In this document: piece by piece, positions 14,521 through 59,535 of the stretch
Numbering within the stretch: the first letter of the stretch is position 1
Layout: every line of letters begins with the position of its first letter
Origin: Procambarus clarkii
Lineage: Eukaryota > Arthropoda > Malacostraca > Decapoda > Cambaridae
Direction: 5' to 3'
Assembly (NCBI RefSeq): GCF_040958095.1
Contig: NC_091156.1
Span: forward strand, 21,941,427-22,005,426
Length of the DNA stretch: 64,000 nucleotides
Made by a program: the position numbers and the translations under genes
Notes under the pieces: model-generated
Told to the model about the DNA's origin: nothing
The model's database searches: none
The model's input: only the letters and a program-made list of their open reading frames with translations

Positions 14521-14565
14521 CGTTGCAAATAAGCATTTTTCTTTGCGATTATTGCGTGGGTCACC

Positions 14566-16495: not shown

Positions 16496-16521
16496 GGAGG
16501 TACTGTGATGGGCTATTGTTG

Positions 16522-16692: not shown

Positions 16693-16726
16693 GGTTTCTC
16701 TTATATTATCTCTCCCCCAGTAAACT

Positions 16727-18880
16727 TATCCTCTCCAGCGGTCTCTACCACACCAGCCTTATCCTCCCTAAAGGTCTCTACCACACCATCCTTATCCTCC
16801 TCAAAGGTCTCTACCACACCAGCCTTATCCTCCCTAAAGGTCTCTACCACACCATCCTTATCCTCCTCAAAGGTCTCTACCACACCATCCTTATCCTCCT
16901 CAAAGGTCTCTACCACACCATCCTTATCCTCCTCAAAGGTCTATACCACACCATCCTTATCCTCCTCAAAGGTCTCTACCACACCATCCTTATCCTCCTC
17001 AAAGGTTTCTACCACACCATCCTTATCCTCCCCAAAGGTCTCTACCACACCATCCTTATCCTCCTCAAAGGTCTCTACCACACCATCCTTATCCTCCCCA
17101 AAGGTCTCTACCGAACCAACCTTATCCTCCCCAGCGGTCTCTATCACACCATCCTTATCCTCACCAGCGGTCTCTACCACACCAACCTTATCCTCCTCAA
17201 AGGTCTCTACCACACCATCCTTATCCTCCTCAAAGGTCTCTACCACACCATCCTTATCCTCACCAGCGGTCTCTACCACACCAGCCTTATCCTCCCCAGC
17301 GGTCTCTACCACACCATCCTTATCCTCACCAGCGGTCTCTACCACACCAACCTTACCCTCCTCAAAGGTCTCTACCACACCATCCTTATCCTCCCCAAAG
17401 GTCTCTACCGAACCAACCTTATCCTCCCCAGCGGTCTCTATCACACCATCCTTATCCTTCCCAGCGGTCTCTACCACACCATCCTTATCCTCACCAACGG
17501 TCTCTACCACACCAACCTTATCCTCCTCAAAGGTCTCTACCACACCATCCTTATCCTCTTCAAAGGTCTCTACCACACCATCCTTATCCTCCCCAGCGGT
17601 CTCTACCACACCATCCTTATCCTCCCCAGCGATCTCTACCACACCAACCTTATCCTCCCCAAATGTCTCTACCACACCATCCTTATCCTCCCCAGCGGTC
17701 TCTACCACACCAGCCTTATCCTCCCCAGCGGTCTCTACCACACCATCCTTATCCTCTCCAGCGGTCTCTACCACACCAGCCTTATCCTCCCCAGCGGTCT
17801 CTACCACACCAGCCTTATCCTCTCCAGCGGTCTCTACCACACCAGCCTTATCCTCCCCAGCGGTCTCTACCACACCAGCCTTATCCTCTCCATCGGTCTC
17901 TACCACACCAGCCTTATCCTCCCCAGCGGTCTCTACCACACCAGCCTTATCCTCCCCAGCGGTCTCTACCACACCAGCCTTATCCTCTCCAGCGGTCTCT
18001 ACCACACCAGCCTTATCCTCCCCAGCGGTCTCTACCACACCAGTCTTATCCTCTCCAGCGGTCTCTACCACACCAGCCTTATCCTCCCCAGCGGTCTCTA
18101 CCACACCAGCCTTATCCTCTCCAGCGGTCTCTACCACACCAACCTTATCCTCCCCAGCGGTCTCTACCACACCAGCCTTATCCTCTCCAGGGGTCTCTAC
18201 CACACAGGCGTTATCCTCCCCAGCGGTCTCTACCACACAGGCGTTATCCTCCCCAGCGGTCTCTCCCACACCATCCTTATCCTCCCCAGCGGTCTCTACC
18301 ACACCAGCCTTATCCTCCCCAGCGGTCTCTACCACACCATCCTTATCCTCTCCAGCGGTCTCTACCACACCAGCCTTATCCTCCCCAGCGGTCTCTGCCA
18401 CACCAGCCTTATCCTCTCCAGCGGTCTCTACCACACCAGCCTTATCCTCCCCAGCGGTCTCTACCACACCAGCCTTATCCTCCCCAGCGGTCTCTACCAC
18501 ACCAGCCTTATCCTCTCCAGCGGTCTCTACCACACCAGCCTTATCCTCCCCAGCGGTCTCTACCACACCAGTCTTATCCTCTCCAGCGGTCTCTACCACA
18601 CCAGCCTTATCCTCCCCAGCGGTCTCTACCACACCAGCCTTATCCTCTCCAGCGGTCTCTACCACACCAACCTTATCCTCCCCAGCGGTCTCTACCACAC
18701 CAGCCTTATCCTCTCCAGGGGTCTCTACCACACAGGCGTTATCCTCCCCAGCGGTCTCTACCACACAGGCGTTATCCTCCCCAGCGGTCTCTCCCACACC
18801 ATCCTTATCCTCCCCAGCGGTCTCTCCTACACCATCCTTATCCTCCCCAGCGGTCTCTACCACACAGGCGTTATCCACAC
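16727..18880. repeat. 33-bp minisatellite (65 or so copies), possible proline-rich coding
   Basis: Units resemble GGTCTCTACCACACC plus AGCCTTATCCTCCCCAGC. Three readings stay open for long stretches: plus GLYHTSLILPS (16,554-18,902), plus RSLPHQPYPPQ (open from about 16,840 to 18,886) and minus VVETAGEDKAG (16,941-18,878). Many differences between units are silent in the RSLPHQPYPPQ frame (CCC/CCT, CAG/CAA, CGG/AGG/CGA, CTA/CTG/CTC, CCA/CCG) but change residues in the others. This frame is therefore the best coding candidate. The first two units carry a stop in it. Whether it is expressed is unknown. Confidence 0.8.
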
Positions 18881-18944
18881 CATTGAGAAACAGTTCTTAT
18901 GATAACCTCTGCAACCCAGTTTGTTTCCTGCGCGAATATATCCC

Positions 18945-19945
18945 TGCCAGTCGGCCCGACTTCCCCAAGGACTCCCCACCCGAACACCAGTGGCATTTAC
19001 CCCAAGAGTCTTCCTCAGCTCATCGTGTGGACTTACCCAAAGAACTTTCTTCCAATTGTTGGCGTGACTTACCTCAACTGCCTTTCCTCTTAAGTCGACC
19101 GGACTTGGACCATGAGTCTCCTTCACCTCGACGGCCGGACTTTCCCCAAGAATCCTCCTCCGTTGGACGGCCGGACTTTCCCCAAGAATCCTCCTCCGTT
19201 CGAAGGCCGGACTTTCCCCAAGAATCTTCCTCCATTCGACGGCCGGACTTTCCCCAAGAATCTTCCTCCGTTCAACGGCCGGACTTTCCCCAAGAATCTT
19301 CCTCCATTCGACGGCCGGAATTTTCCCAAGAATCTTCCTCAGTTCGTCGACCGGAATTTTTCCAAGAATCCTCTTCCGTTGGAGGGCCGGACTTTTCCCA
19401 AGAATCTTCCTCCGTTCGACGGCCGGACTTTCCCCAAGAATCTTCCTCCGTTCAACGGCCGGACTTTCCCCAAGAATCTTCCTCCATTCGACGGCCGGAA
19501 TTTTCCCAAGAATCTTCCTCCGTTCGACGGCCGGACTTTCCCCAAGAATCCTCCTCCGTTCAACGGCCGGACTTTCCCCAAGAATCCTCCTCCATTCGAC
19601 GGCCGGAATTTCCCCAAGAATCCTCCTCCGTTGGACGGCCGGACTTTTCCCAAGAATCTTCCTCCATTCGACGGCCGGAATTTCCCCAAGAATCTTCCTC
19701 CATTCGACGGCCGGAATTTCCCCAAGAATCTTCCTCCATTCGACGGCCGGAATTTTCCCAAGAATCTTCCACCGTTCGACTACCAGACTGGTCCTAAGAA
19801 TCTTCCTCCGTTCGACTACCGGACTGGTCCCAAGAATCTTCCTCCGTTCGACTACCAGACTGGTCTCAAGAATCTTCCTCCGTTCAACGGTCGGACTGGT
19901 CTCAAGAATCTTCCTCCGACTGATGGCCAGATTTATCCTGATTGA
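18945..19945. repeat. 36-bp minisatellite with degenerate leading copies
   Basis: Units resemble GGCCGGACTTTCCCCAAGAA plus TCCTCCTCCGTTGGAC. Plus-strand readings are PDFPQESSSVRR (18,883-19,797) and GRTFPKNLPPFD (19,112-19,945). The minus strand reads SNGGRFLGKVRP in two pieces. Degenerate 12-residue copies (WHLPQESSSAHR, VDLPKELSSNCW) extend left from the regular array to about 18,945, so the array spread from older copies. The last units change to a CTGGTC variant. No frame is clearly favoured. Confidence 0.75.
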
Positions 19946-22316: not shown

Positions 22317-22765
22317 GTGAGCATGAAGAGAATGCGCAACTACAAGTCATCTAAAGACCTTGTGTGTACTCGACTTTGATCAATGGAGGACCGACCACGG
22401 GGACAGAGGACCTCAACGATCATCGCCAGAGGATATGGCCACTTTGTAGCAGAGAGAATTAAGGCAGATATATTCCCTCCCTTTATCCCTTGATCTAGGT
22501 GAGCTAGAGTATCATTTATGCTATGTGACTGTTATCTTTATTATTATTGCCAGTGAGATAGGATTAGGCTATGTGCCAGGATATATATATATATATATAC
22601 ATGATAATGTATATTATCCATTGGAGAGTTTCAGCGCCGTGGAGATGGGGGGAGCTGTTGCCTGGGTAACAGCTTCTCCTCCGAATCAACCTACCCTGGC
22701 TCTTTGCCCTGGTGAGGCCACTCCAGCCCGACAACCAGAGCGCAACTCTATAGTCTCCTGAGACT

Positions 22766-22799
22766 GATGGATGCCTACTACTAGTAGTAGGCATCCATC
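22766..22799. repeat. Perfect 34-nt palindrome
   Basis: Two 17-nt arms meeting at ACT|AGT with no spacer (GATGGATGCCTACTACT and its complement). Short ACTACTAGTAGT echoes follow. Confidence 0.95.
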
Positions 22800-22870
22800 A
22801 CTACTACTACTAGTAGTTTACACTACTCACTAGTGTATTCCCAGGTGTGCAATTACTCAATAGCCTAGAG

Positions 22871-22976: not shown

Positions 22977-22992
22977 AGATGCTATCTTCCAC

Positions 22993-25355
22993 CCCAAGGT
23001 GGAAGATAGCATCCCCACCACAGTACAGTACTGCAAGGTGCAACAAAGAGTGTCCAATCAGCAAAGTCTAAAGGTAATACGACTTTACCTACTGCCCAAA
23101 TTACCATCCAGAATAAGAGGGCCAAGGTCCATACCCGTGGGTTGTTTGACCAAGGGTCCCAGAGAACATATGTCAATAAAAAGTTGGCAGATGAATTACA
23201 ACTAAAGCCTGAAGCCCTGACGACAATCAACATCTCAGGGTTTATAACAGATGCAGAACCTCAAGTCTACCAGGTGGTACAACCATCAATACGTTTAGGC
23301 AGGTACGTCTGTCAAGTACAAGCCATTGTGGTGGACAAAATACCAGTAGACCTACAAGTTCAAGGTCTGAGAGCAACAGCCAAATTCCTGAGAAATAGAG
23401 GAATAAAATTGGCAGATAATATTAAGTCTGATCACCTCACCGACTTCGATCTCCTTGTAGGAACAGACTACTATCTGTATCGAACAGAATCGATTCATCG
23501 ATTCATCGGTAGCCCTACTAAATGTCAGGGCATAACCATGCTAAATTCTGCAGTAGGCAAATTACTCTCAGGTCCAGTATCAAGCCTGAGGAGACCTATG
23601 GCTGCAGATAAACAATACTAGTAGAAATCTAAATTTGTCAGCTGATTATATTTCTCCAGTAGCATTATACTAAGGAGATTACAGCTGACTATAGCAACAG
23701 AGTTTGATGTTAATATCATCACTAAAAGCTGAAGATGAGTTCATGAGGCCTCAGTGGCAAATCAGTGAACAGTAGCCTAAACAGCTACAAGTCACTGCGA
23801 CCAATGTCACTGAACCCACTGCAGTCTCAGAACCATTCTTTACTTTAATGATGAGCTATTCAATCTTCTGAATCAATTAACTAAATTAAACCCTAATAAA
23901 TCTGATGACTGATTTGATACATTTATTATTTAATCAAGATGTATTCCATGGGCTTCAGTGTTTATATATCAGTGACCAGTTACCTGAACAAGCTTCAAGT
24001 TATATCTAATGTCACTGATCTCACTGCAGTCCCTGAATCATACTTGACTGTAGTACTTGATCACATTCAGTCCTCTGGGTTAAATAATATGTAATTAGGC
24101 TTGAATTATAGCCTTTCAAGAGTTAACAGAGAAATGAAATCGCATTAGACTTCTAACCCCTGCAACTCGAGTACAGGACATCCGTCCTGTATGAACAGAC
24201 GCACAAATGTGTGATTACTAACTACTAACATCAAATTAATCTAATAATTCGAAGGAGGAGTATCGGTGTTCGTCTGTTCTAAATAGGACTTCGACCCGTG
24301 AGCAGCCCCCCCAGGGAATTATGTAGGAAAAAACGACACCATTTAATAATATTACATGCAATTGCAGATAATATTGCTGCCGTTGTATACACAAGTTAAC
24401 CCATAGAAAATGTAGCTTGTAGTGGAATTTTCCGTCAATAGAAAACGGGATATCATTGCCACATACTATTATAAATTCACCAGCTATTCTGCTGGGAATT
24501 ATTCTTAAATACATTAGTCTTTGGACTTTACCATCATAAAAACATCTCATTTGAATTAACTTAATTATCAGTATCAAAATAAAGTAAATGTGACCCTTCT
24601 ATCAGTTACTGATATCTGGACAAAGTAGGCCAGGCGTCAGTGAGGAAGGAGTGGTCAGCCATTGTTGTTAAGACCAGAGTCGTGGGGCATATTACAGCTC
24701 CTATAAATTCTCTTGGACGAAGTGTTATGGAAGTTCAGAGTAGTGATTTGCCATCATCAACATGCTGTCATCAACCACAGATGAAGTGTTATTCCGAAAC
24801 CCGTTTATCTAATCATTTTTGGTCATTAATGTTAGTTGGATATTGGGCGAACCGGTGAGAACACAAAGGATCGACTGAAAAAAGGTAATTAAGCCTTGGT
24901 TCTTATCTGAATCATTATACAGTGTTTTCTCTGATATAGCTGTCATATATTAGGATTCTGGCTTTACAGCTAGCGCCCTTTGACAGGAACAAGAAGAGGA
25001 AGCAAGCTTGGTATATCAGTTACTGGGTGATGGAAGCTGCCTCACACGAGGATAATTTGGTGTCTACATCCTAGTTATACCTGGTGGACTAAGCCTGTCT
25101 GTACAATAAGATAAGGAACCTCCTCAATGTATACTAATATATGTAGTTTAATACTGTAGTTTGATTGGCTACATATATATAAATTCAATATAAACCCCCC
25201 TAATGTGTAAGGATCGATTTGTGAGATTATTGCAGAAATACAGTCCACTTAACATCATACAAATTGCTATCGAAAATATAAATTAACGTAAATATAAATT
25301 CTATGTAAATTCACATAAATTAAATATATATAAATCTCACAGGTCGGTTCCCACA
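22993..25355 (+). mobile_element. BEL/Pao LTR-retrotransposon fossil, 3' portion
   Basis: The coding part shows the end of gag and the DUF1758-type protease: LFDQGSQRTYVNKKLADEL holds the DQGS active-site motif, and NISGFITDAEPQVYQV follows. A short non-coding region and a 3' LTR (24,322-25,355) come next. RT, RNase H and integrase were not seen. It closely parallels the larger BEL element at 50,558-56,198. The copy is broken and lacks its 5' part. Confidence 0.8.
24322..25355 (+). repeat. BEL/Pao 3' LTR
   Basis: About 1,034 bp, starting TGTAGGAAAAAACGAC after a purine-rich GGGAATTA and ending GGTCGGTTCCCACA. It matches the LTRs at 50,558 and 55,192 in reverse orientation, with more divergence than those two have from each other. 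Confidence 0.8.
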
Positions 25356-26882
25356 ATTGTACCAGCACTGTACCAGCACACTGTACCAGCACACTGTACC
25401 AGCAAATTGTACCAGCACTGTACCAGCACACTGTACCAGCAGACTGTACCAGCACACTGTGCCAGCACACTGTACCAGCACACAGTATCAGCACACTGTA
25501 CCAGCACACTGTACCAGCACACTGTACCAGCACACTGTACCAGCACACTGTGCCAGCACACTGTACCAGCACACAGTATCAGCCCACTTTACCAGCACAC
25601 TGTGCCAGCACACTGTACCAGCACACTGTACCAGCACACTGTACCAGCACACTGTGCCAGCACACTGTACCAGCACACAGTATCAGCACACTGTACCAGC
25701 ACACTGTACCAGACCTAAACCAGCACACTGTACCAGCACACTGTGCCAGCACACTGTGCCAGCACACTGTGCTAGCACACTGTGCCAGCACACTGTACCA
25801 GCACGGTACTATCACACTGTAACAGCACACTGTGCCAGCACACTGTACCAGCACACTGTGCCAGCACACTGTACCAGCACACTGTACCAGCACACTGTAC
25901 CAGCACACTGTACCAGCACACTGTACCAGCACACTGTACCAGCACTGTGCCAATACATTGTACCAGCACACTGTACCAGCACACTGTACCAGCACATTGT
26001 ACCAGCACACTGTGCCAGCACACTGTACCAGCACATTGTACCAGCACACTGTACCAGCACACTGTGCCAGCACATTGTAACAGTACATTGTACCAGCACA
26101 CTGTACCAGCACACTGTACAACACATTGCACCAGCACACTGTATCAGCACACTGTACCAGCACATTGTACCAGGACATTGTACCAACACACTGTACCAGC
26201 ACATTGTACCAGCACATTGTACCAACACACTGTACCAGCACACTGTACCAGCACACTGTCCCAGCACATTGTACCAGCACATTGTACCAGCACACTGTAC
26301 CAGCACACTGTACCAGCACGTTGTACCAGCACACTGTACCAGCACGGTACTATCACACTGTGCCAGCACACTGTACCAGCACAGTGCCAACACACTGTAC
26401 CAGCATACTGTACCAGCACACTGTACCAGCACATTGTACCAGCACCCTGTGCCAGCACACTGTGCCAGCACACTGTACCAGCACACTGTACCAGCACATT
26501 GTACCAGCACACTGTATCAGCACACTGTGCTAGCACACTGTACCAGCACACTGTACCGGCACATTGTACCGGCACACTGTACCAGCACACTGTACCAGCA
26601 CACTGTACCAGCACACTGTGCCAGCACACTGTACCAGCACACTGTACCAGACCTAAACCAGCACACTGTACCAGCACACTGTACCAGCACACTGTGCCAG
26701 CACACTGTGCTAGCACACTGTGCCAGCACACTGTGCTAGCACACTGTGCCAGCACACTGTACCAGCACGGTACTATCACACTGTAACAGCACACTGTACC
26801 AGCACACTGTACCAACACACTGTGCCAGCACACTGTACCAGCACACTGTACCAGCACACTGTACCAGCACACTGTGCCAGCA
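25356..26882 (+). repeat. 13-bp satellite block 1
   Basis: About 117 units of CACTGTACCAGCA with frequent GTGCCAGCA and ATTGTACC variants. It starts directly at the BEL LTR end. The unit has no stop in most phases, so long meaningless frames appear on both strands. Interrupters CCAGACCTAAACC and CACGGTACTATCAC recur. Confidence 0.97.
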
Positions 26883-26891
26883 AGTAGTAGG

Positions 26892-26950
26892 GTTGACACG
26901 CCACAGACGAATTTTTTTTTGGGGGGGGGAAATTCGTCTGTGGCGTGTCA
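26892..26950. repeat. Sub-terminal hairpin, left end of foldback
   Basis: GACACGCCACAGACGAATTT, then T and G homopolymers, then the complement AAATTCGTCTGTGGCGTGTC. Confidence 0.9.
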
Positions 26951-27710
26951 GGGTTTTCAGGTGAATTTATAAATTCGTGTGTAGCATGTCGGGGTTTTCA
27001 GGTAAATTTGGGGAGCCACACATTTGGAATTAAGGATTTCTTAAGAGTGAGTAATTTCCGAGATTTTGGAAGTATGGAATTCTTATGAGAAAAATAATTT
27101 CCGAGACTTAGAAGTTTGTTAAGGGCTTATGGGAGAAATTCAAGTAACGTATGTAGCGCTTTAGGGTTTCCAGGAGAACTCTACAGACATATTTTACATG
27201 TTTTCAACTTACAAAAATCGTCTATGTAAGCCTTAGTTATTCATGTAAATTTAGAAAGTTATCTGTGTAAGTCAGGGTTTTCAGGGGCTCGTACCTCACA
27301 CCCCCTCCCTCCCCCCCTTACCTCGCAATCTCTCGCGTCACCTTTATTTACCTTACGCCCGGCCAGCCAGACCCTTCTTGTAGGTCTCCTCTTATCATAT
27401 CTTATCTTTTCTTCTCCATAATATCTGGACCGTCCCTCCTCTCTCTCTCCTTTCATTCAGTTCAGCTATTTTCCAACATCGTATGTTTGCTCCTTTTCAT
27501 TAAGCAAGTCAGTTTTACACAAATAAATCGTGTTAGTAAGCATGTTCTAGCTCACGTTCCCCCGCCTTAGTCCCCTGTCGTATAATGAATACTATCATTC
27601 CAATCCCTCTAAAATTTAAAAATAATCATATTTCAAACGTAGTTCAATACAGTAATTTAGTTACCAAGCTCCAGCGCTTGTCCTCCGCCTTAGCTCTCTC
27701 TCGTATCTTC

Positions 27711-28150
27711 GTTAGTAACAGTCCAATTTCCCTGAAATTTTTACCCTCTGTATTTCAGGCACCGTAAATAAGATCAAAACAGTTATCGAGCTCCAGCTCT
27801 CGTCCCCCACCTTAGTTCGTTTATACAAGATCGTTAGTAACAGTCCAATTTCCCTGAAATTTTTACCCTCTGTATTTCAGGCACCGTAAATAAGATCAAA
27901 ACAGTTATCGAGCTCCAGCTCTCGTCCCCCACCTTAGTTCGTTTATACAAGATCGTTAGTAACAGTCCAATTTCCCTGAAATTTTTACCCTCTGTATTTC
28001 AGGCACCGTAAATAAGATCAAAACAGTTATCGAGCTCCAGCTCTCGTCCTCCACCTTAGTTCATTGTACAAAATCGTTAGTAACAGATCAATTCCCCTCA
28101 AATTTTTTACCCTCTGTATTTTCAGGCTCCATAAATAAGATCAAAACAGT
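27711..28150 (+). repeat. 122-bp tandem array, left arm (about 4 copies)
   Basis: Units begin GTTAGTAACAGTCCAATTTC, spaced exactly 122 bp apart at 27,711, 27,833, 27,955 and 28,077. The last copies are diverged. Confidence 0.92.
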
Positions 28151-31100
28151 TATCGAGCTCCAGCTCTTGTCCATCGCCTTAGTTCACTCATGTAAATTCA
28201 TTACTCTCAGTCCAAATCACCCAACTACATTTTCAGACATAGTAAATAAAAACCAGTTCAGTTATCAAGTTTCAACTCTTGTGCCCCAGCTTAGTTCATT
28301 TTGTACAAGTTCTTTATTTTCCAACTAAATCACCCTGAGATTTAAAATCACCTTATTTTCTAACGTAGTAAAATTAATCTGGACATTAGCCAAGTTCCAT
28401 TTCCTCAGCCTTAGATCATCAGACATAAATATATTCAATCAAGTCCATCTCCAGCCTAACTCTTATCCGAGTACACACATAACCCCAACCTGTGTAATTA
28501 TCTTTCACCCCCTCCCACCTTCCTCCATCTCATCTCATCTCACCTTACCCTTTCCCTCCCTTACCTTCTCATCCCCAACGTATCCAAACCTTCAATAATC
28601 ATACTGTATTTGCATATTTTCTCTATATTCAGCTGTGTTCTTCACTTTTTGTCCATGTTTTCTGTGTTCATTCCATGTTCTACAAATGTTCACAGTCCCA
28701 TTCAGTTCATATTTTCACAAGTATCTCCATTTTTTCTGTAATCTTTCTCTTAGTCTCATTACTTTCTCTACAAATTCTAGTCATATTTTCTATGTTTTCA
28801 TGTTCATCACATGTTCTCTTTACAACTTTTATACTCAATATTCATGCTAACTTCCATATGTTGTGTTCTTTGTCAACATTCATGTTCCTCTACAAGTTCA
28901 TATTCCCTGCATGTTCACTCTATTCAACTTTTTCTTACATGTTTTCTGTGTTCACCGTATGTTCACTGTGTTCATTCCCTTACTTAACCTCAATTTTTTT
29001 TATGTTCTTTGTTTCTTCCATTCACTAACTAGTTCTTTGTCAAATATTAGCATCAGCAATACAGTTTCCTCAACAATTTTAGTCACCAAGTTTTTATTTG
29101 CAAAAACTATGTCAAAGTAATTCTCGTAGTCAACTTAATAGTTCTACCAGCCATGTTCTTAAACAAATCTACACTTTATTCAGTTCCAAATTTACAAAGA
29201 CAAACCTTTCTTGTAACTTCTTAACTAAAAATCTTTCGCCAATCAACTGAAACATAGTCACTTTCCTCATTTCTCAACTAAACTTATTATCCAGTCAACT
29301 AAAAATAGTCAGAAATAGCCTCGTTCAACACTGTTCTTAACTAAAACAACCTTTCTCTTAGCTAAAAATTGTCAAAGGAAACTTCTTTCAGCACTTTCTT
29401 AACAGCCGCTATGTTTCATCAAGTAAGAAAAAAATTGCCAAAGGAAACTTTCCAAAACTGTTCATAACTAGCTTTTATCCATCGTCAATCAACTAAAAAT
29501 AATAACTTTCATCATTTCTTAACTAAACTTATTCCCCAGTCATCAGAAAATAACCGTGTTCTTCGTGTTTCATTGTCATTTCATAACTAAAATTATCCAT
29601 CAATCAACAGAAAAAGCCATGTTCATCATGTTTTGTCTTTTTGCTTAACTAAAATTATGTTTTGTCAAGTAAGAAAAAATAACCAAAGATATCTTTCATC
29701 GCTGTTCTTAACTGACATTATACTTTGGGGAGCACAAAAAATAGTCTCCCTCGTCATGTTTTGTCTTTTTCCTTAACTAAAGTATTCATCAGTCAACTAA
29801 AAAATAGTTGCTTCATCATGTTTCCTTGTCATTTCTTAACTGAAATATCACTTCTCTCATTTAAAATAGTCATGTGTAGCCTCTTTCCAACACTGTTCTT
29901 AACTAAAGTAACCTTTCACTTCGCTAAAATAGTCATATTCGTCATTGTTCCTAACTAAAATTATATGTCGTTAAGTAAGAAATATAGTCAAAGACTCTCT
30001 TCGAGACATCAAGGACTTACTCAAAGACATCAAAGTTGCACTCAAAGACATCCTTTGAGACATCAAAGACATCCTTTAAGACTTCAATGGGACTCTTCGA
30101 GATATCAAAAGACACTCTCAAACACTCAAAAATTTACTTGCATCCTCAAAGTTAATCTCAGAGGCATAAAAGTTATTCTCGGAGCTATCAAAATTAATCT
30201 CTAAAACAACAAAAGTTAATCTCTGTCATCAAAGTTGATCTGCAAGATATCTTCGAGACATCAAAGTTACTTTTCATTACATCAAAGACGCATTCAAATA
30301 CTACCCATGTTCTCAGAAGTCATTCTCAAAGTCATCAAAGTTATTCAAAGAGCTAACAAAAGTTATTCTCAGAGTCACTTTCGTTCTTCAGAGAAACTTT
30401 CCAAAACATCTTTGTTCATCAAAGATATTCTCTAAGTCCTGAAAGTTATTCTCTAAGACAGCAAAGTTATTCTCTGAGCTAACAAAATACTACTCATGTT
30501 CTCAAAGACATTCTCAAAGTCATCAAAGTTATTCACAGAGTCATCAAAGTTATTCTCTAACTCACTTTTGTTCATTAAAGTTAATTTCTATGTTATAAAA
30601 GTTATTCTCTATGTCATCAAAAGTTATTCTCTGAGCTAACAAAATACTACTCATGTTCTCAAAGACATTCTCCAATTCATCAATGTTGTTTCAATGACAT
30701 CAAAGTTAATCTCAGAGTTATCCAAAGACATTCTCAAAGTCATCTAAAGTTATTCTCTAAGACATCAAAGTTATTCTAAGAGTTATCAAAAGTTATTCTC
30801 AGTCATGTTATGTTATTCTCTAACTCACTTCCATTCATCAAAGACATTCTCTAAGCCCTCAAAGTTATTCTCTAAGACAACAAAGTCATTCCCAGAGTCA
30901 TCAAAAAAGTTATTCTTCGAAACATAAAATTTGCTCTGTAAGATATCTTCGTTCATCAAACTTATTCTCAGAGATATCTAAAGTTATTCTCAGAACAATC
31001 AAAAGTTATTCTAAGACAACAAAAGTTATTCTCAGAGCTACCCAAAGCTATTCTCAGAGTCACCTTCGTTCGTCAGAGAAACTTTCAAAACATCTTTGTT

Positions 31101-31439
31101 CATCAAACTTGTTTTCAAAGTCATCAAAAGTTAATCTAAGACATCTTCTTTCATCAAAGTTATTTTCAGAGACATCTAAAGTTATTCTCAGAGTCATCAA
31201 AGTGATCTCTAATTCACCTTTGTTCTCCCAAAGTTGTTCTCTAAGACACCTTCGTTCATCAAAGAAACTCTCCTTCTTCCATCATGTTATTCTTTAAGAC
31301 ATCTTCAGTCATAAAATTTCTCTCCAAAATGTAACTAGTTCAGCTTTTCATACCAAACCTGCATTTCTGTTAAAACATATTTTCTTAGTTGCTTTACCCT
31401 AAAACTGTTCTCTGAACTACACTGTTCAAACCTACGTAA

Positions 31440-32160
31440 CCTATCCTCTCCACCCAATGTTACTTAGTTAACGTAACGTTCCTAAACCTAACTTTACCTA
31501 TCCTAACATAACTTACCTTACCTTACCTATCTTACCTGACTTTACCTATCTTACCTAACTTAACCTGCATAACCTAACTTTACCTATGTTACCTTACCTT
31601 ACCTATCTTACCTAACCTAACCTAACTTTACCTATGTTACCTTACCTTACCTACCTTTCCTAACTTAACCTGCTTAACCTATCTTACCTATCTTACCTAA
31701 CTTTACCTATGTTACCTTACCTTACCTACCTTTCCTAACTTAACCTGCTTAACCTATCTTACCTATCTTACCTAACTTTACCTATCTTACCTAACTTTAC
31801 CTATGTTACCTTACCTTACCTACCTTTCCTAACTTAACCTGCTTAACATATCTTACCTATCTTACCTAACTTTACCTATCTTACCTAACTTAACTTTCAT
31901 AACCTAACTTTACCTATCCTAACATAACTTACCTTACCTTCCCTATCTTACCTAACTTTACCTATCCTAACATAACTTACCTTACCTATCATACCTAACT
32001 TAACCTAACTTTACCTATCCTAACTTAACTTACCTAACTTATTCTGCTTAACCTAACTTACCTACATTACCTAACTTAACCTGCTTAACCTAACTTATTT
32101 AACTTATCTTACCTATCCTAACCTAACTTGCTTTACCTAACTTAATCTTACATTCCCAAA
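31440..32160 (+). repeat. TTACC/TTAACC-rich array, left arm
   Basis: Irregular runs of TTACCTAACTTTACCTATC-type words. They resemble decayed CCTAA telomere-like repeats but are not pure TTAGG. Confidence 0.85.
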
Positions 32161-32901
32161 CTGATGTATCCTAACTTATCTAGTCAAACCAGACATGATC
32201 TAACTTACATAATTATTCCTTCTTGTCTTTTGTGTTTCGTCAATCATTGTCTCATATTCATTTACTCATTTCTTTAGTTAATTTCTCAAATGGTCACTTA
32301 TGGATTTCAAGTGCTATTTGTTAGAGATTGGATATTTAAGCATTTCAAAGAATTATAATTTCTCAAATGGTCACTTATGCATTTCAAATGCTATTTGTTA
32401 GAGATTGGATATTTAAGCATTTCAAAGAATTTTTGTTATATATGGGCATTTACTCATTTCAAGGGATAATTTCTCAAATGGACGTTTTGCATTTCAAGTG
32501 TTATTTGTTTAAGATTGGGTGTTTAACCATTTCAAAGGTTTTTGTTATATATGGGAACTTACTCGTTTCAAGGGCCAATTTCTCAAATGGCCATTTTTGC
32601 AGATCAAGGGTTATTTGTTAAAGTTCATCAAGTTGCTCATAAGTTGTATTTATTATGTTTGTTATCATTTATTCTTATTCCCCAACCCCTTAACCTAACC
32701 TCTTGTAATCTTAGTATATTTGGTATGTTCTATCATATGTTCTTATTCCCCAACCCTTTAACCTAACCTTTCAGATGTAGTTTATGGTGTTTTTGACGTA
32801 TTTGTTGAATATATTATCCTTTTCCTAACCTTTCAGATGTAGTTTTGTTTCTCCTTTGTATATTTTTACCCAAACCTTCTTTCCTTCTTTTACTTTGATT
32901 T

Positions 32902-33278
32902 TCCTACTCCTTCTAACCCTCCTTTTCTATCTCTCTCCCTTATTCTCTCTCTTCCTCCCCCTCTCTCTCCCTCATTTGCTCAAATGCTCTCTTGTTTCTC
33001 AAATTCAAGTCTTAATGCTCCCATTCTCACACCCTCACTCTCATTCACTTAGTTTTCTTTTTTCTCAAATTCAAGTCTTAGTTCCCCCATGCCCACACTC
33101 TCTCTCTCATTCTCTCTTCTTTGGTCCCATTTTCTTCCGCCCCCTCTCTCTTACTCCTTGCTCTTCTTTCATGCTCTCACTCCCTTGAGCTCTTGTTTCT
33201 CAATTTCAAGTCTTAGTAGATCTGATTCTTTACTATTGTAATTCTATTATTACTAAGATAAAGAATGAACTTATATGT
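32902..33278. other. Foldback central spacer
   Basis: A 377-bp CT-rich loop with three copies of TTGTTTCTCAAATTCAAGTC or close variants. It has no inverted partner. Confidence 0.85.
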
Positions 33279-34019
33279 GAAATCAAAGTAAAAGAAGGAA
33301 AGAAGGTTTGGGTAAAAATATACAAAGGAGAAACAAAACTACATCTGAAAGGTTAGGAAAAGGATAATATATTCAACAAATACGTCAAAAACACCATAAA
33401 CTACATCTGAAAGGTTAGGTTAAAGGGTTGGGGAATAAGAACATATGATAGAACATACCAAATATACTAAGATTACAAGAGGTTAGGTTAAGGGGTTGGG
33501 GAATAAGAATAAATGATAACAAACATAATAAATACAACTTATGAGCAACTTGATGAACTTTAACAAATAACCCTTGATCTGCAAAAATGGCCATTTGAGA
33601 AATTGGCCCTTGAAACGAGTAAGTTCCCATATATAACAAAAACCTTTGAAATGGTTAAACACCCAATCTTAAACAAATAACACTTGAAATGCAAAACGTC
33701 CATTTGAGAAATTATCCCTTGAAATGAGTAAATGCCCATATATAACAAAAATTCTTTGAAATGCTTAAATATCCAATCTCTAACAAATAGCACTTGAAAT
33801 GCATAAGTGACCATTTGAGAAATTATAATTCTTTGAAATGCTTAAATATCCAATCTCTAACAAATAGCACTTGAAATCCATAAGTGACCATTTGAGAAAT
33901 TAACTAAAGAAATGAGTAAATGAATATGAGACAATGATTGACGAAACACAAAAGACAAGAAGGAATAATTATGTAAGTTAGATCATGTCTGGTTTGACTA
34001 AATAAGTTAGGATACATCA

Positions 34020-34700
34020 GTTTGGGAATGTAAGATTAAGTTAGGTTAGGATAGGTAAGATAAGTTAAATAAGTTAGGTTAAGCAGGTTAAGTTAGGTAA
34101 TGTAGGTAAGTTAGGTTAAGCAGAATAAGTTAGGTAAGTTAAGTTAGGATAGGTAAAGTTAGGTTAAGTTAGGTATGATAGGTAAGGTAAGTTATGTTAG
34201 GATAGGTAAAGTTAGGTAAGATAGGGAAGGTAAGGTAAGTTATGTTAGGATAGGTAAAGTTAGGTTATGAAAGTTAAGTTAGGTAAGATAGGTAAAGTTA
34301 GGTAAAATAGGTAAGATAGGTTAAGCAGGTTAAGTTAGGAAAGGTAGGTAAGGTAAGGTAACATAGGTAAAGTTAGGTAAGATAGGTAAAGTTAGGTAAG
34401 ATAGGTTAAGCAGGTTAAGTTAGGAAAGGTAGGTAAGGTAAGGTAACATAGGTAAAGTTAGGTAAGATAGGTTAAGCAGGTTAAGTTAGGAAAGGTAGGT
34501 AAGGTAAGGTAACATAGGTAAAGTTAGGTTAGGTTAGGTAAGATAGGTAAGGTAAGGTAACATAGGTAAAGTTAGGTTATGCAGGTTAAGTTAGGTAAGA
34601 TAGGTAAAGTCAGGTAAGATAGGTAAGGTAAGGTAAGTTATGTCAGGATAGGTAAAGTTAGGTTTAGGAACGTTACGTTAACTAAGTAACATTGGGTGGA
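34020..34700 (-). repeat. GGTAA/GGTTAA-rich array, right arm
   Basis: Inverted counterpart of the left-arm TTACC array. Confidence 0.85.
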
Positions 34701-37700
34701 GAGGATAGGTTACGTAGGTTTGAACAGTGTAGTTCAGAGAACAGTTTTAGGGTAAAGCAACTAAGAAAATATGTTTTAACAGAAATGCAGGTTTGGTATG
34801 AAAAGCTGAACTAGTTACATTTTGGAGAGAAATTTTATGACTGAAGATGTCTTAAAGAATAACATGATGGAAGAAGAAGAGTTTCTTTGATGAACGAAGG
34901 TGTCTTAGAGAACAACTTTGGGAGAACAAAGGTGAATTAGAGATCACTTTGATGACTCTGAGAATAACTTTAAATGTCTCTGAAAATAACTTTGATGAAA
35001 GAAGATGTCTTAGATTAACTTTTGATGACTTTGAAAACAAGTTTGATGAACAAAGATGTTTTGAAAGTTTCTCTGACGAACGAAGGTGACTCTGAGAATA
35101 GCTTTGGGTAGCTCTGAGAATAACTTTTGTTGTCTTAGAATAACTTTTGATTGTTCTGAGAATAACTTTAGATATCTCTGAGAATAAGTTTGATGAACGA
35201 AGATATCTTACAGAGCAAATTTTATGTTTCGAAGAATAACTTTTTTGATGACTCTGGGAATGACTTTGTTGTCTTAGAGAATAACTTTGAGGGCTTAGAG
35301 AATGTCTTTGATGAATGGAAGTGAGTTAGAGAATAACATAACATGACTGAGAATAACTTTTGATAACTCTTAGAATAACTTTGATGTCTTAGAGAATAAC
35401 TTTAGATGACTTTGAGAATGTCTTTGGATAACTCTGAGATTAACTTTGATGTCATTGAAACAACATTGATGAATTGGAGAATGTCTTTGAGAACATGAGT
35501 AGTATTTTGTTAGCTCAGAGAATAACTTTTGATGACATAGAGAATAACTTTTATAACATAGAAATTAACTTTAATGAACAAAAGTGAGTTAGAGAATAAC
35601 TTTGATGACTCTGTGAATAACTTTGATGACTTTGAGAATGTCTTTGAGAACATGAGTAGTATTTTGTTAGCTCAGAGAATAACTTTGCTGTCTTAGAGAA
35701 TAACTTTCAGGACTTAGAGAATATCTTTGATGAACAAAGATGTTTTGGAAAGTTTCTCTGAAGAACGAAAGTGACTCTGAGAATAACTTTTGTTAGCTCT
35801 TTGAATAACTTTGATGACTTTGAGAATGACTTCTGAGAACATGGGTAGTATTTGAATGCGTCTTTGATGTAATGAAAAGTAACTTTGATGTCTCGAAGAT
35901 ATCTTGCAGATCAACTTTGATGACAGAGATTAACTTTTGTTGTTTTAGAGATTAATTTTGATAGCTCCGAGAATAACTTTTATGCCTCTGAGATTAACTT
36001 TGAGGATGCAAGTAAATTTTTGAGTGTTTGAGAGTGTCTTTTGATATCTCGAAGAGTCCCATTGAAGTCTTAAAGGATGTCTTTGATGTCTCAAAGGATG
36101 TCTTTGATGTCTCAAAGGATGTCTTTGAGTGCAACTTTGATGTCTTTGAGTAAGTCCTTGATGTCTCGAAGAGAGTCTTTGACTATATTTCTTACTTAAC
36201 GACATATAATTTTAGTTAGGAACAATGACGAATATGACTATTTTAGCGAAGTGAAAGGTTACTTTAGTTAAGAACAGTGTTGGAAAGAGGCTACACATGA
36301 CTATTTTAAATGAGAGAAGTGATATTTCAGTTAAGAAATGACAAGGAAACATGATGAAGCAACTATTTTTTAGTTGACTGATGAATACTTTAGTTAAGGA
36401 AAAAGACAAAACATGACGAGGGAGACTATTTTTTGTGCTCCCCAAAGTATAATGTCAGTTAAGAACAGCGATGAAAGATATCTTTGGTTATTTTTTCTTA
36501 CTTGACAAAACATAATTTTAGTTAAGCAAAAAGACAAAACATGATGAACATGGCTTTTTCTGTTGATTGATGGATAATTTTAGTTATGAAATGACAATGA
36601 AACACGAAGAACACGGTTATTTTCTGATGACTGGGGAATAAGTTTAGTTAAGAAATGATGAAAGTTATTATTTTTAGTTGATTGACGATGGATAAAAGCT
36701 AGTTATGAACAGTTTTGGAAAGTTTCCTTTGGCAATTTTTTTCTTACTTGATGAAACATAGCGGCTGTTAAGAAAGTGCTGAAAGAAGTTTCCTTTGACA
36801 ATTTTTAGCTAAGAGAAAGGTTGTTTTAGTTAAGAACAGTGTTGAACGAGGCTATTTCTGACTATTTTTAGTTGACTGGATAATAAGTTTAGTTGAGAAA
36901 TGAGGAAAGTGACTATGTTTCAGTTGATTGGCGAAAGATTTTTAGTTAAGAAGTTACAAGAAAGGTTTGTCTTTGTAAATTTGGAACTGAATAAAGTGTA
37001 GATTTGTTTAAGAACATGGCTGGTAGAACTATTAAGTTGACTACGAGAATTACTTTGACATAGTTTTTGCAAATAAAAACTTGGTGACTAAAATTGTTGA
37101 GGAAACTGTATTGCTGATGCTAATATTTGACAAAGAACTAGTTAGTGAATGGAAGAAACAAAGAACATAAAAAAAATTGAGGTTAAGTAAGGGAATGAAC
37201 ACAGTGAACATACGGTGAACACAGAAAACATGTAAGAAAAAGTTGAATAGAGTGAACATGCAGGGAATATGAACTTGTAGAGGAACATGAATGTTGACAA
37301 AGAACACAACATATGGAAGTTAGCATGAATATTGAGTATAAAAGTTGTAAAGAGAACATGTGATGAACATGAAAACATAGAAAATATGACTAGAATTTGT
37401 AGAGAAAGTAATGAGACTAAGAGAAAGATTACAGAAAAAAATGGAGATACTTGTGAAAATATGAACTGAATGGGACTGTGAACATTTGTAGAACATGGAA
37501 TGAACACAGAAAACATGGACAAAAAGTGAAGAACACAGCTGAATATAGAGAAAATATGCAAATACAGTATGATTATTGAAGGTTTGGATACGTTGGGGAT
37601 GAGAAGGTAAGGGAGGGAAAGGGTAAGGTGAGATGAGATGAGATGGAGGAAGGTGGGAGGGGGTGAAAGATAATTACACAGGTTGGGGTTATGTGTGTAC

Positions 37701-38039
37701 TCGGATAAGAGTTAGGCTGGAGATGGACTTGATTGAATATATTTATGTCTGATGATCTAAGGCTGAGGAAATGGAACTTGGCTAATGTCCAGATTAATTT
37801 TACTACGTTAGAAAATAAGGTGATTTTAAATCTCAGGGTGATTTAGTTGGAAAATAAAGAACTTGTACAAAATGAACTAAGCTGGGGCACAAGAGTTGAA
37901 ACTTGATAACTGAACTGGTTTTTATTTACTATGTCTGAAAATGTAGTTGGGTGATTTGGACTGAGAGTAATGAATTTACATGAGTGAACTAAGGCGATGG
38001 ACAAGAGCTGGAGCTCGATAACTGTTTTGATCTTATTTA

Positions 38040-39245
38040 TGGAGCCTGAAAATACAGAGGGTAAAAAATTTGAGGGGAATTGATCTGTTACTAACGATTT
38101 TGTACAATGAACTAAGGTGGAGGACGAGAGCTGGAGCTCGATAACTGTTTTGATCTTATTTACGGTGCCTGAAATACAGAGGGTAAAAATTTCAGGGAAA
38201 TTGGACTGTTACTAACGATCTTGTATAAACGAACTAAGGTGGGGGACGAGAGCTGGAGCTCGATAACTGTTTTGATCTTATTTACGGTGCCTGAAATACA
38301 GAGGGTAAAAATTTCAGGGAAATTGGACTGTTACTAACGATCTTGTATAAACGAACTAAGGTGGGGGACGAGAGCTGGAGCTCGATAACTGTTTTGATCT
38401 TATTTACGGTGCCTGAAATACAGAGGGTAAAAATTTCAGGGAAATTGGACTGTTACTAACGATCTTGTATAAACGAACTAAGGTGGGGGACGAGAGCTGG
38501 AGCTCGATAACTGTTTTGATCTTATTTACGGTGCCTGAAATACAGAGGGTAAAAATTTCAGGGAAATTGGACTGTTACTAACGAAGATACGAGAGAGAGC
38601 TAAGGCGGAGGACGAGAGCTGGAGCTTGGTAATGGACTTGATCTTATTTACGGTGCCTGAAATACAGAGGGTAAAAATTTCAGGGAAATTGGACTGTTAC
38701 TAACGATCTTGTATAAACGAACTAAGGTGGGGGACGAGAGCTGGAGCTCGATAACTGTTTTGATCTTATTTACGGTGCCTGATATACAGAGGGTAAAAAT
38801 TTCAGGGAAATTGGACTGTTACTAACGAACTTGTATAAACGAACTAAGGTGGAGGACGAGAGCTGGAGCTCGATAACTGTTTTGATCTTATTTACGGTGC
38901 CTGAAATACAGAGGGTAAAAATATCAGGGAAATTGGACTGTTACTAACGAAGATACGAGAGAGAGCTAAGGCGGAGGACGAGAGCTGGAGCTCGGTAATG
39001 GACTTGATCTTATTTACGGTGTCTGAAATACAGAGGGTAAAAATTTCAGGGAAATTGGACTGTTACTAACGATCTTGTATAAACGAACTAAGGTGGGGGA
39101 CGAGAGCTGGAGCTCGATAACTGTTTTGATCTTATTTCCGGTGCCTGAAATACAGAGGGTAAAAATTTCAGGGAAATTGGACTGTTACTAACGAAGATAC
39201 GAGAGAGAGCTAAGGCGGAGGACAAGCGCTGGAGCTTGGTAACTA
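38040..39245 (-). repeat. 122-bp tandem array, right arm (about 10 copies)
   Basis: The same unit inverted, with about ten copies counted by GGGTAAAAA. Some carry a shorter GAAGATACGAGAGAGAGC segment in place of GATCTTGTATAAACGAAC. Confidence 0.9.
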
Positions 39246-39952
39246 AATTACTGTATTGAACTACGTTTGAAATATGATTATTTTTAAATTTTAGAGGGAT
39301 TGGAATGATAGTATTCATTATACGACAGGGGACTAAGGCGGGGGAACGTGAGCTAGAACATGCTTACTAACACGATTTATTTGTGTAAAACTGACTTGCT
39401 TAATGAAAAGGAGCAAACATACGATGTTGGAAAATAGCTGAACTGAATGAAAGGAGAGAGAGAGGAGGGACGGTCCAGATATTATGGAGAAGAAAAGATA
39501 AGATATGATAAGAGGAGACCTACAAGAAGCGTCTGGCTGGCCAGGCGTAAGGTAAATAAAGGTGACGCGTGAGATTGCGAGGTAAGGGGGGGAGGGAGGG
39601 GGTGTGAGGTACGAGCCCCTGAAAACCCTGACTTACACAGATAACTTTCTAAATTTACATGAATAACTAAGGCTTACATAGACGATTTTTGTAAGTTGAA
39701 AACATGTAAAATATGTCTGTAGAGTTCTCCTGGAAACCCTAAAGCGCTACATACGTTACTTGAATTTCTCCCATAAGCCCTTAACAAACTTCTAAGTCTC
39801 GGAAATTATTTTTCTCATAAGAATTCCATACTTCTAAAATCTCGGAAATTACTCACTCTTAAGAAATCCTTAATTCCAAATCTGTGGCTCCCCAAATTTA
39901 CCTGAAAACCCCGACATGCTACACACGAATTTATAAATTCACCTGAAAACCC

Positions 39953-40011
39953 TGACACGCCACAGACGAATTTCCCCCCCCCCAAAAAAAAATTCGTCTG
40001 TGGCGTGTCAA
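39953..40011. repeat. Sub-terminal hairpin, right end of foldback
   Basis: Mirror copy of the left hairpin, with C and A homopolymers in the loop. Confidence 0.9.
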
Positions 40012-40021
40012 CCCTACTACT

Positions 40022-42992
40022 CCAGCACACTGTACCAGCACACTGTACCAGCACACTGTGCCAGCACACTGTACCAGCACACTGTACCAGCACACTGTAC
40101 CAGACCTAAACCAGTACACTGTACCAGCACACCGCACCAGCACACTGTGCCAGCACACTGTACCAGCACACTGTACCAGCACACTGTGCCAGCACACTGT
40201 ACCAGCACACTGTGCCAGCACACTGTACCAGCACACTGTGCCAGCACACTGTACCAGCACACTGTGCCAGCACACTGTACCAGCACACTGTACCAGCACA
40301 CTGTACCAGCACACTGTACCAGACCTAAACCAGTACACTGTACCAGCACACTGTATCAGCACACCGCACTAGCACACTGTGCCAGCACACTGTACCAGCA
40401 CACTGTACCAGCACTGTGCCAACACACTGTACCAGCACACTGTACCAGCACACTGTACCAGCACACTGTACCAGCACACTGTGCCAGCACACTGTACCAG
40501 CACACTGTGCCAGCACACTGTGCCAGCACATTGTGACAGTACATTGTACCAGCACACTGTACCAGCACACTGTACAACACATTGCACCAGCACAATGTAT
40601 CAGCACACTGTACCAGCACATTGTACCAACACACTGTACCAGCACATTGTACCAGCACATTGTACCAGCACATTGTACCAACACACTGTACCAGCACACT
40701 GTACCAGCACACTGTGTCAGCACTGTGCCAACACACTGTACCAGCACACTGTACCAGCACACTGTCCCAGCACATTGTCCCAGCACATTGTACCAGCACA
40801 TTGTACCAGCACACTGTACCAACACATTGTACCAGCACACTGTACCAGAACATTGTACCAGCACACTATACCAGCACGGTACTATCACACTGTGCCAGCA
40901 CACTGTACCAGCACACTGTACCAGCACTGTGCCAACACACTGTACCAGCATACTGTACCAGCACACTGTACCAGCACATTGTACCAGCACTCTGTGCCAG
41001 CACACTGTACCAGCAAACTCTACCAGCACATTGTACCAGCACACTGTACCAGCACACTGTGCCAGCACACTGTACCAGCACATTGTACCGGCACACTGTA
41101 CCAGCACACTGTACCAGCACACTGTACTAGCACACTGTAACAGTACATTGTACCAGCACACGGTACCAACACACTGTACCAGCACTGTGCCAACACACTG
41201 TACCAGCACACTGTACCAGTACACTGTACCAGTACACTGTACGAGCACACTGTACCAGCACACTGTGCCAGCACATTGTACCAGCACACTGTACCAGCAC
41301 ATTGTACCAGCACACTGTACCAGCACACTGTACCAGCACATTGTACCAGCACACTGTACCAGCACATTGTACCAGCACATTGTACCAGTACATTGTACCA
41401 GCACACTGTACCAGCACACTGTACCAGCACATTGTACCAGCACTGTGCCAACACACTGTACTAGCACACTGTACCAGTACATTGTACCAGCACTGTGCCA
41501 ACACACTGTACTAGCACACTGTACCAGCACACTGTGCCAGCACATTGTACCAGCACACTGTACCAGCACACAGTACCAGCACACTGTACCAGCACACTGT
41601 GCCAGCACACTGTACCAGCACTGGGCCAACACACTGTACCAGCACACTGTGCCAGCACACTGTGCCAGCACTGTGCCAACACACTGTACCAGCACACTGT
41701 ACCAGCACATTGTACCAGCACATTGTACCAGCACACTGTACCAGCACTGTGCCAACACTGTACCAGCACACTGTACCAGTACACTGTACGAGCACACTGT
41801 ACCAGCACACTGTGCCAGCACATTGTACCAGCACATTGTACCAGCACATTGTACCAGCACACTGTACAGCACATTGTACCAGCACACTGTACCAGCACAC
41901 TGTACCAGCACACTGTGCCAGCACACTGTACCAGCACTGTCCCAACACATTGTACCAGCACACTGTCCCAGCACATTGTACCAGCGCACTGTACCAGCAC
42001 ACTGTACCAGCACACTGTACCAGCACACTGTACCAGCAGACTGTGTCAGCACACTGTACCAGCACACTGTGCCAGCACATTGTACCAGCACACTGTGCCA
42101 GCACACTGTACCAGCACACTGCACCAGCACACTGCACCAGCACATTGTAACAGCACACTGTACCAGCACACTGTACCAGCACATTGTACCAGCACACTGT
42201 ACCAGCACACTGTACCAGCACATTGTAACAGCACACTGTACCAGCACACTGTGCCAGCACACTGTACCAGCACATTGTACCAGCACATTGTACCAGCACA
42301 TTGTACCAGCACACTGTACCAGCACACTGTACCAGCACTGTGCCAACACACTGTACTAGCACACTGTACCACCACACTGTACCAGCACACTGTGCCAGCA
42401 CTGTGCCAACACACTGTACCAGCACACTGTACCAGCACACTGTACCAGCACACTGTGCCAGCACACTGTACCAGCACACTGTACCAGCACTGTGCCAACA
42501 CACTGTACCAGCACAATTTACCAGCACACTGTACCAGCACATTGTACCAGCACCCTGTGCAAGCACACTGGGCCAGCACACTGTACCAGCACACTGTACC
42601 AGCAAACTGTACCAGCACACTGTACCAGCACACTGTACCATGTACCAGCACACTGTACCATGTACCAGCACACTGTACCAACACACTGTACCAGCACATT
42701 GTACCAGCACACTGTACCAGCACACTGTACCATGTACCAGCACACTGTACCAGCACACTGTACCAGCAAACTGTACCAGCACACTGTACCAGCACACTGT
42801 ACCATGTACCAGCACACTGTACCAACACACTGTACCAGCAAACTGTACCAGCACACTGTACCAGCACACTGTACCATGTACCAGCACACTGTACCAGCAC
42901 ATTGTACCAGCACACTGTACCAGCACATTGTACCAGCACACTGTACCAGCACATTGTACCAGCACACTGTACCAGCACATTGTACGGCACAC
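40022..42992 (+). repeat. 13-bp satellite block 2
   Basis: About 228 units of CACTGTACCAGCA. The same interrupters as block 1 recur (CCAGACCTAAACC near 40,105 and 40,320; CACGGTACTATCAC near 40,877). Near 42,640-42,890 a local variant inserts CATGTAC, giving CTGTACCATGTACCAGC several times. Confidence 0.97.
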
Positions 42993-43311
42993 TGTACCAG
43001 CTATTATAGCTTGCTTGTGGGTTGGCGTTGTCGTCGTCGTTGATCCTTCTCTACGGACAACCCAACCCACAACTCGGTAGAGTACTTATACCTCTCTAGG
43101 AGATCACCCTTGGCGCTTCTGGCTCTTGGAGAGGGGCTCAACGTCACACATTTAGGGGATGCGGCTCCCACACCTAGCCTCGTTGTCACGTGCACACACC
43201 CACTCGAGCCGCTGTGACTCCCCACTCTCTCCTTAGGTGATATTATCTCCTCAATCCCCCTTTGGCTTATTAGTATTACCTTCTACCCTGTCCACAGCGG
43301 TGGCTCTTGGT

Positions 43312-58036: not shown

Positions 58037-58084
58037 TGAACTTCTATATAATGCAATGGAATGTCTGATCATTTCATTAAAAAG

Positions 58085-58182
58085 AAAAGTTGAAAAATAC
58101 ATAACCAGGAAAACTTGGCTTTTTAGGCAAATCAAGCCTTGCATAGTAGGCCAAGTAGTGCGTTCTGGCTATTAGGTACAAC

Positions 58183-58258: not shown

Positions 58259-58263
<5 letters not shown>

Positions 58264-59534: not shown

Positions 59535-59535
<1 letters not shown>

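Follow-up and report, generated by a model that had tools for sequence, protein, structure and literature searches.

What is a 13.1-kb palindrome doing inside a satellite array of the crayfish Procambarus clarkii, and how did it get there? The palindrome lies in a 64,000-nt stretch of contig NC_091156.1 (positions 21,941,427–22,005,426 of the forward strand; NCBI RefSeq assembly GCF_040958095.1), here called the window; coordinates below are window positions. An initial annotation had proposed insertion of a palindromic mobile element. That proposal stands, and the kind of element can now be added. We consider it highly likely that the element is an integrated, non-autonomous foldback derivative of a Maverick/Polinton family, which would be moved and replicated in trans, with one arm templating the other and with insertion at a 6-bp stagger. 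Three features place it in the Maverick lineage: a 6-bp target-site duplication (TSD), ends of the form (AGT)2//(ACT)2, and a terminal inverted repeat (TIR) homologous to that of a gene-bearing Maverick.

Structure of the foldback element

An inverted-repeat search for long collinear blocks resolves the element (26883–40021) into two inverted arms with matching tips, 26883–32901 and 33280–40021, around a loop of ~378 bp, much as first described (377 bp). Aligned with MAFFT, the arms differ by 12 mismatches in 5,986 columns. The gaps in this alignment measure 732 bp (6 x 122), 21, 9, 9 and 14 bp, which are units of local arrays, in addition to three single bases. BLAST counts 21–24 mismatches over about 5.2 kb, because it positions the long array gap differently from MAFFT. 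The 122-bp array has 3.9 units in the left arm versus 9.9 in the right.

The arms are, as the initial annotation had noted, mosaics of tandem repeats with no clear gene. Tandem Repeats Finder (TRF) identifies families of 122 bp and 21–22 bp, an AACCT-like family, and nested repeats of 38/77/110 bp. A Pfam scan covered nine of the ten listed stop-to-stop frames of the left arm and loop (at least 85 amino acids [aa]; the tenth is mostly satellite), and no family scored above the cut-off in these nine frames. Within that scope, the element has no detectable PolB or rve integrase of its own.

The satellite runs in the same direction on both sides, as had been observed, and its phase is kept too. 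The left flank ends in ...GTGCCAGCA, and the right flank starts with CCAGCACACTG...; removal of one CCAGCA restores the satellite with its phase unchanged, making CCAGCA a perfect extra 6 bp. By inspection, an alternative 19-bp duplication would carry one mismatch. The tips read 5'-AGTAGTAGGG and CCCTACTACT-3', i.e., AGTAGT...ACTACT. The features are as follows.

25358–26882, plus strand: 13-bp satellite, left flank and insertion target (TRF array, period 13)
26877–26882, plus strand: TSD CCAGCA, left copy (sequence)
26883–26902, plus strand: left tip AGTAGTAGGGTTGACACGCC, with the (AGT)2 end motif (118 exact genome copies; motif as in PMC8097293)
26894–26950, plus strand: sub-terminal stem-loop with a 21-bp stem and a loop containing T9G9 (DNA fold z = −12.2)
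26883–27530, plus strand: outer TIR common to gene-bearing Mavericks, to ~27449 for copy C17 and ~27530 for copy C55 (90–91% identity)
26883–32901, plus strand: left arm (inverted repeats, MAFFT)
27709–28185, plus strand: 122-bp tandem array, 3.9 units (TRF)
30004–31264, plus strand: degenerate 21–22-bp repeat region (TRF)
31480–32129, plus strand: AACCT/TTAGG-like degenerate array (TRF)
32279–32623, plus strand: nested 38/77/110-bp repeats (TRF)
32902–33279, no strand: unpaired central loop (13 of the 16 clean foldbacks have a match, which can lie in either orientation)
33280–40021, minus strand: right arm, inverted copy of the left (inverted repeats, MAFFT)
33558–33902, minus strand: 38/77/110-bp repeats, mirror (TRF)
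34036–34664, minus strand: AACCT/TTAGG-like array, mirror (TRF)
34885–36166, minus strand: 21–22-bp repeat region, mirror (TRF)
37986–39194, minus strand: 122-bp tandem array, 9.9 units (TRF)
39373–40021, minus strand: outer TIR, right copy (left end mapped through the arm alignment)
40002–40021, minus strand: right tip, ending ACTACT-3' (sequence, genome copies)
40022–40027, plus strand: TSD CCAGCA, right copy (sequence)
40022–43001, plus strand: 13-bp satellite, right flank, direction and phase unchanged (TRF)

Is there an empty site? The joined flank aligns with another array over 377 bp at 92.8% identity. One place matches the final 200 bp of the left flank at 97.5% but lacks a continuation into the right flank, and we therefore claim no empty site.

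A dispersed family with 6-bp target duplications

The genome search proposed in the initial annotation was made on the assembly containing the window (4.03 Gb, 2,308 contigs), and it was positive, which argues against a local duplication. Exact matches to the 20-base tip number 118 (63 forward, 55 reverse), whereas the reversed pattern, used as control, has 0; allowing as many as two mismatches gives 635 copies for the tip and 5 for the control. The exact tip has no match in viral contigs. Among the first 100 of the 118 tips there are 33 facing pairs within 20 kb, 26 of which span 12.0–13.5 kb; 34 of the 100 tips were left unpaired, and 18 further tips fall outside the list. Twenty-one of the 33 pairs were examined: the window copy, 19 as halves, and C50 whole. 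They comprise 16 clean two-arm foldbacks, two Mavericks with genes (C17 and C55), one cargo-type copy (C29), a foldback with extra DNA (C31), and another foldback whose right arm is largely lost (C50). Arms of 6 kb had been called extreme; arms of 4–6 kb prove to be usual in this family. The clean foldbacks have a median length of 12,945 bp (n = 16, standard deviation 704, range 10,850–14,018 bp).

Insertion is supported by the TSDs: 20 of the 21 two-ended copies have a perfect 6-bp duplication, each one different, and the exception (C5) matches at 5 of 6 positions. The duplications are not explained by array phase, because all seven copies without a tandem array across the insertion site have 6/6 matches. 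The family is large, gene-less, dispersed and mobile, and it looks young. Searches with the loop (40 places scored) and with an arm piece (40 full-length places scored) gave identities of 98–100%, and 22 of the arm-piece places form 11 facing pairs within 9 kb.

The loop is matched in 13 of the 16 clean foldbacks; C14b and C38 have no match, and the centre of C8a is only partly covered. Because 13 copies have one loop in common, the palindrome most likely arose once, with the arms staying matched within lineages that have since diverged. Partial loop matches between copies are 91–100% identical, except for one of 75% (C14c). A specially conserved loop was considered and rejected: in comparisons between copies, the inner arm segments (medians 95–97%) show roughly the same similarity as the loop.

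Two further arrangements were seen in the assembly. On contig C1175 (13930–26759), three matches of the arm piece lie head to tail with a spacing of 6,195 bp, which could be either satellite-like amplification of the arm or an assembly effect. On C85, tip pairs of 12,588 and 12,586 bp (13197263–13209850 and 13250244–13262829) lie 53 kb apart and could be either a segmental duplication or two insertions.

Gene-bearing relatives

C17 (13,340 bp) and C55 (18,790 bp, including an insert with reverse transcriptase and RNase H matches) have TIRs of ~0.9 kb. Both have the same tip as the window element, and their outer 556–655 bp match the window arm at 90–91%; beyond the outer TIR, neither matches the window arm or loop. 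Several proteins are recognisable with Pfam. First, both copies have a polymerase frame of ~1,300 aa, the C-terminal 868 aa of which match DNA_pol_B_2 in C17 (6.9e-17). Second, C55 has a packaging-type ATPase (Pox_A32, 6e-8). Third, a 374-aa integrase matches rve (6e-9 in C17, 8e-9 in C55) and has a chromodomain (Chromo, 4e-6 in C55; 2e-5 in C17, just below the cut-off). Proteins of 314 and 467 aa are capsid candidates from gene order alone (module order of PMC8097293). A C48 protease is weakly suggested for a 188-aa protein (E = 0.038, short of the cut-off), for which a solved-structure sequence search gave nothing significant.

Genome searches located the integrase in at least 110 places, each at least 98% identical and 108 of 110 without a stop, and the 467-aa protein in at least 91 places, each about 99% identical and 88 of 91 without a stop. 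Because only the best candidates were scored, these counts are minima and favour the copies most alike; first-look counts for the two proteins, in the thousands, are unconfirmed. The gene-bearing pairs of measured length that show no sign of an insert are close in size: C17 13,340, C39 13,367, C2 13,338, C12 13,182 and C54 13,229 bp.

The ends fit published Mavericks. According to PMC8097293, vertebrate Mavericks most often end in (AGT)2//(ACT)2, (AG)3//(CT)3 is also an end motif, and intact vertebrate copies have TIRs of 46–1,447 bp. Duplications of 6 bp at the target have been reported for intact Mavericks.

C29 (12.58 kb) differs in architecture from both foldbacks and gene-bearing copies: its tips and TSD are the same, while its TIRs measure 3.2 kb. 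Its interior contains BIR and BIR/RING frames of the inhibitor-of-apoptosis type (2.6e-14, 7e-10 and 1e-12), and Maverick gene families were unmatched in the seven frames scanned. Its first ~1.9 kb are ~85% identical to the foldback arm.

Arm identity within and between copies

How alike are the two arms of one copy? Over the parts that align, identity is 99.1% or more in 14 of the 16 clean foldbacks. C38 is the lowest of these (99.15–99.3%); C9 has 0 mismatches in 5,678 and C14c has 1 in 6,353. In eight of the 16 (C8a, C8b, C9, C11, C14a, C14c, C27 and C34a), the arms align as one block, arrays included, with at most 22 gap bases over 4.6–6.4 kb. When 5.2 kb were compared, the partner arm was the best match for 31 of 40 arms. 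The nine exceptions are both arms of C17, C55, C6 and C10a and one arm of C14b; C17 and C55 fail because shared genes dominate the compared 5.2 kb.

Between copies, identity is lower, with a median of 83.5% for the tip segment, 92.5% for the outer TIR, and 95.3, 96.5 and 96.8% for three inner segments (14–17 copies per segment, counting only copies with a match over 85% of the segment; the first two segments include C17, C55 and C29). Some copies are patchworks. For example, the left arm of C10a is identical to that of C34b over about 2.7 kb, and the left arm of C6 is identical to that of C9 over about 0.9 kb; the partner arms are not. Both C10a and C6 nonetheless have perfect TSDs. Copies thus exchange pieces, whether ahead of insertion or through conversion afterwards.

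Proposed mechanism and alternative explanations

The element retains the ends that Maverick machinery plausibly needs (AGTAGT tip, sub-terminal stem-loop, ~0.6 kb of TIR), and gene-bearing relatives would supply polymerase and integrase. The window element was very probably moved in trans in this way. During protein-primed replication, the displaced strand would fold back and one arm would template the other. As a result, the two would be nearly identical after each cycle; one arm may be re-made from the other in every replication cycle. The linear product would then be inserted with a 6-bp stagger, in the window into the 13-bp satellite.

Several observations weigh against this account. The arms beyond ~0.65 kb match neither C17 nor C55, which means that neither could have given rise to the foldback through simple deletion or snapback. 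Arm equalisation has exceptions: in C6 and C10a the arms are only 96.5 and 92.3% identical and each is closer to other copies, one C14b arm is closer to another copy than to its partner, and arm lengths differ by 0.7–1.1 kb in the window element, C5, C14b and C38 (the arm identities leave out indels). The whole 1,300-aa polymerase frame of C55 has no Pfam match at E 0.01, the 868-aa piece from C17 has no PDB match at E 1, and the capsid candidates have no significant Pfam family or PDB match. Movement in trans is itself our inference.

The best-surviving alternative is that the element is a Maverick-derived foldback whose arms are kept alike by chromosomal gene conversion between them, and not by copying during replication. 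Long nearby inverted repeats convert readily, and the mosaic patches of C6 and C10a are 100% identical to other copies. However, these two copies combine perfect TSDs with diverged arms, which means that conversion does not always erase differences. The eight clean foldbacks that align as one block, arrays included, also speak against conversion, yet four others differ by 0.7–1.1 kb. We regard this explanation as unlikely, though it retains some weight.

Could the element instead be a classical Foldback, Mutator-like or P-like as Galileo, with its own cut-and-paste transposase? Foldback anatomy, as described in PMC4079207 and PMC3573991, consists of a small middle domain between long TIRs with internal repeats, and the window element has such TIRs. 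However, 20 of 21 copies have a TSD of 6 bp, versus 8–10 bp for Tetris (Mutator-type) and 7 bp for Galileo (P superfamily). A Maverick/Polinton family present in the same genome has these tips, this TSD length and this outer TIR; the classical Foldback was therefore rejected and is very improbable. An assembly artefact or local inverted duplication is more improbable still: palindromes can come from chimeric reads and the locus lies inside a satellite, but this explanation was rejected on the phase-preserving 6-bp duplication, the dispersed facing tips, and the distinct, perfect TSDs in unrelated flanks.

The replicative reading invites a further one. The foldbacks and the gene-bearing copies are similar in length (median 12.9 kb versus 13.2–13.4 kb), which suggests packaging; shared ancestry could also explain the match. 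Foldback Mavericks might be satellite genomes of a capsid-forming Maverick, that is, self-complementary hairpins re-copied in each cycle and held near the length of the helper through packaging in helper particles. We put this forward as a tentative possibility.

Comparison with known systems

The window element has the ends, the 6-bp TSD and the outer TIR of the copies bearing PolB, integrase and ATPase, and a similar length. It differs from Mavericks/Polintons in having no genes found and in TIRs of ~6 kb, versus 46–1,447 bp in vertebrates and ~0.9 kb in C17 and C55. Longer TIRs have been described: in a survey of Polinton-like viruses, they reach up to thousands of bp, and TIRs of 100 bp to 8 kb were kept (PMC12220804).

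Tetris and Galileo share with the foldback family long TIRs with internal tandem repeats, a small middle domain, a gene-less or defective state and (very probably, in the foldback family) movement by a relative; Galileo also shares exchange between copies. Apart from TSD length, there are two differences: Tetris TIRs reach 1,735 bp, and the flanks of Galileo chimeras did not match, in contrast to the perfect TSDs of C6 and C10a.

In adeno-associated virus (AAV), snapback genomes are self-complementary molecules with one end of the helper, symmetric or looped (PMC8235507). Near-identical self-complementary arms are likewise found in 14 of the 16 clean foldbacks. However, the foldback is integrated, in many dispersed copies, and its arms do not come from the end of either of the two helpers sampled, as only the outer ~0.6 kb matches C17 and C55 and the arm interiors do not. 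Truncated endogenous mavirus-like elements (EMALEs) are shortened, still have TIRs, and are said to have regenerated after truncation; their TIRs are 0.2–2.3 kb, and the accessible text describes no foldbacks (PMC8547959). Truncated EMALEs serve as a precedent for TIR regeneration (PMC8547959) and AAV for a snapback satellite (PMC8235507). Among the open-access matches listed, no title or abstract opening names a foldback or palindromic Maverick, and two papers on crayfish or decapod repeats, in the portions available, mention Mavericks only briefly.

Functional implications

What would a foldback Maverick mean? First, it unites Foldbacks and virus-like Mavericks, kinds of element that are usually treated apart. 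Second, a single genome brings together tips by the hundred, gene-bearing relatives and comparisons of arm against arm, and provides a natural experiment on how Mavericks replicate. If arms are re-made in each cycle, palindrome identity would be a readout of a replication step that, to our knowledge, has been inferred before and never watched. Third, scattered palindromes on the ten-kb scale would bear on genome stability, double-stranded RNA and assembly quality. Fourth, if the foldbacks are packaged satellites, they would parallel snapback defective-interfering genomes in a form that is integrated and heritable.

Sub-terminal stem-loop and insertion sites

A stem of 20–21 bp adjoins the end motif. 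By string search, a perfect stem of at least 15 bp is present in eight of 20 left tips. Covariation was assessed in 14 tips chosen for this stem type (11 distinct rows); the tips of C5, C8a, C8b, C14a, C14b and C31 have a different arrangement and were left out. In this sample, 98.6% of cells pair, five of 20 stem pairs have changes in both partners and no pair has a change in just one, and one pair is broken in three rows. The 15 double-change cells are reached in none of 500 shuffles, the count of pair types in 37. Selection could explain the pairing, as could templated copying or the common descent of a small number of tip types.

A tandem array spans the joined insertion site in 14 of the 21 copies, with periods of 13–73 and differing sequences. 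It is possible that the chromodomain integrase prefers minisatellites. This is only a lead, because the background controls are poor: arrays were found in five of eight cases at the sites, four of eight at 0.6 kb and four of eight at 1.4 kb away, and 17 of 85 elsewhere in the window.

Other features of the window

A perfect 36-bp spacerless palindrome at 22765–22800 has the 9-bp tip motif, head to head, as its core. It lies upstream of a frame with an aspartyl-protease match and is probably a chance occurrence or a retroelement leader. Consecutive minisatellites of 18, 33 and 36 bp at 14505–19945 are open in frame for 667, 1,034 and 283 aa. An inverted duplication at 57885–61327 has 1.5-kb arms that are 98.5% identical (57885–59405 versus 61327–59787); each arm has the same ~300-aa frame, resembling part of a reverse-transcriptase frame at 4949–6454 that we take to be Penelope-like. 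Reverse-transcriptase and DUF1759 frames, AACCT-like repeats, a 4-Gb genome and contigs of chromosome size (35–63 Mb among those listed) are in keeping with a large arthropod, perhaps a decapod, as host. Lastly, a 1,007-bp direct repeat (98.7%) at 50558–56198 flanks a DUF1759 frame in the manner of a pair of long terminal repeats, and an inverted relative (88.5%) lies at 22991–25355; both are presumably of BEL/Pao type.

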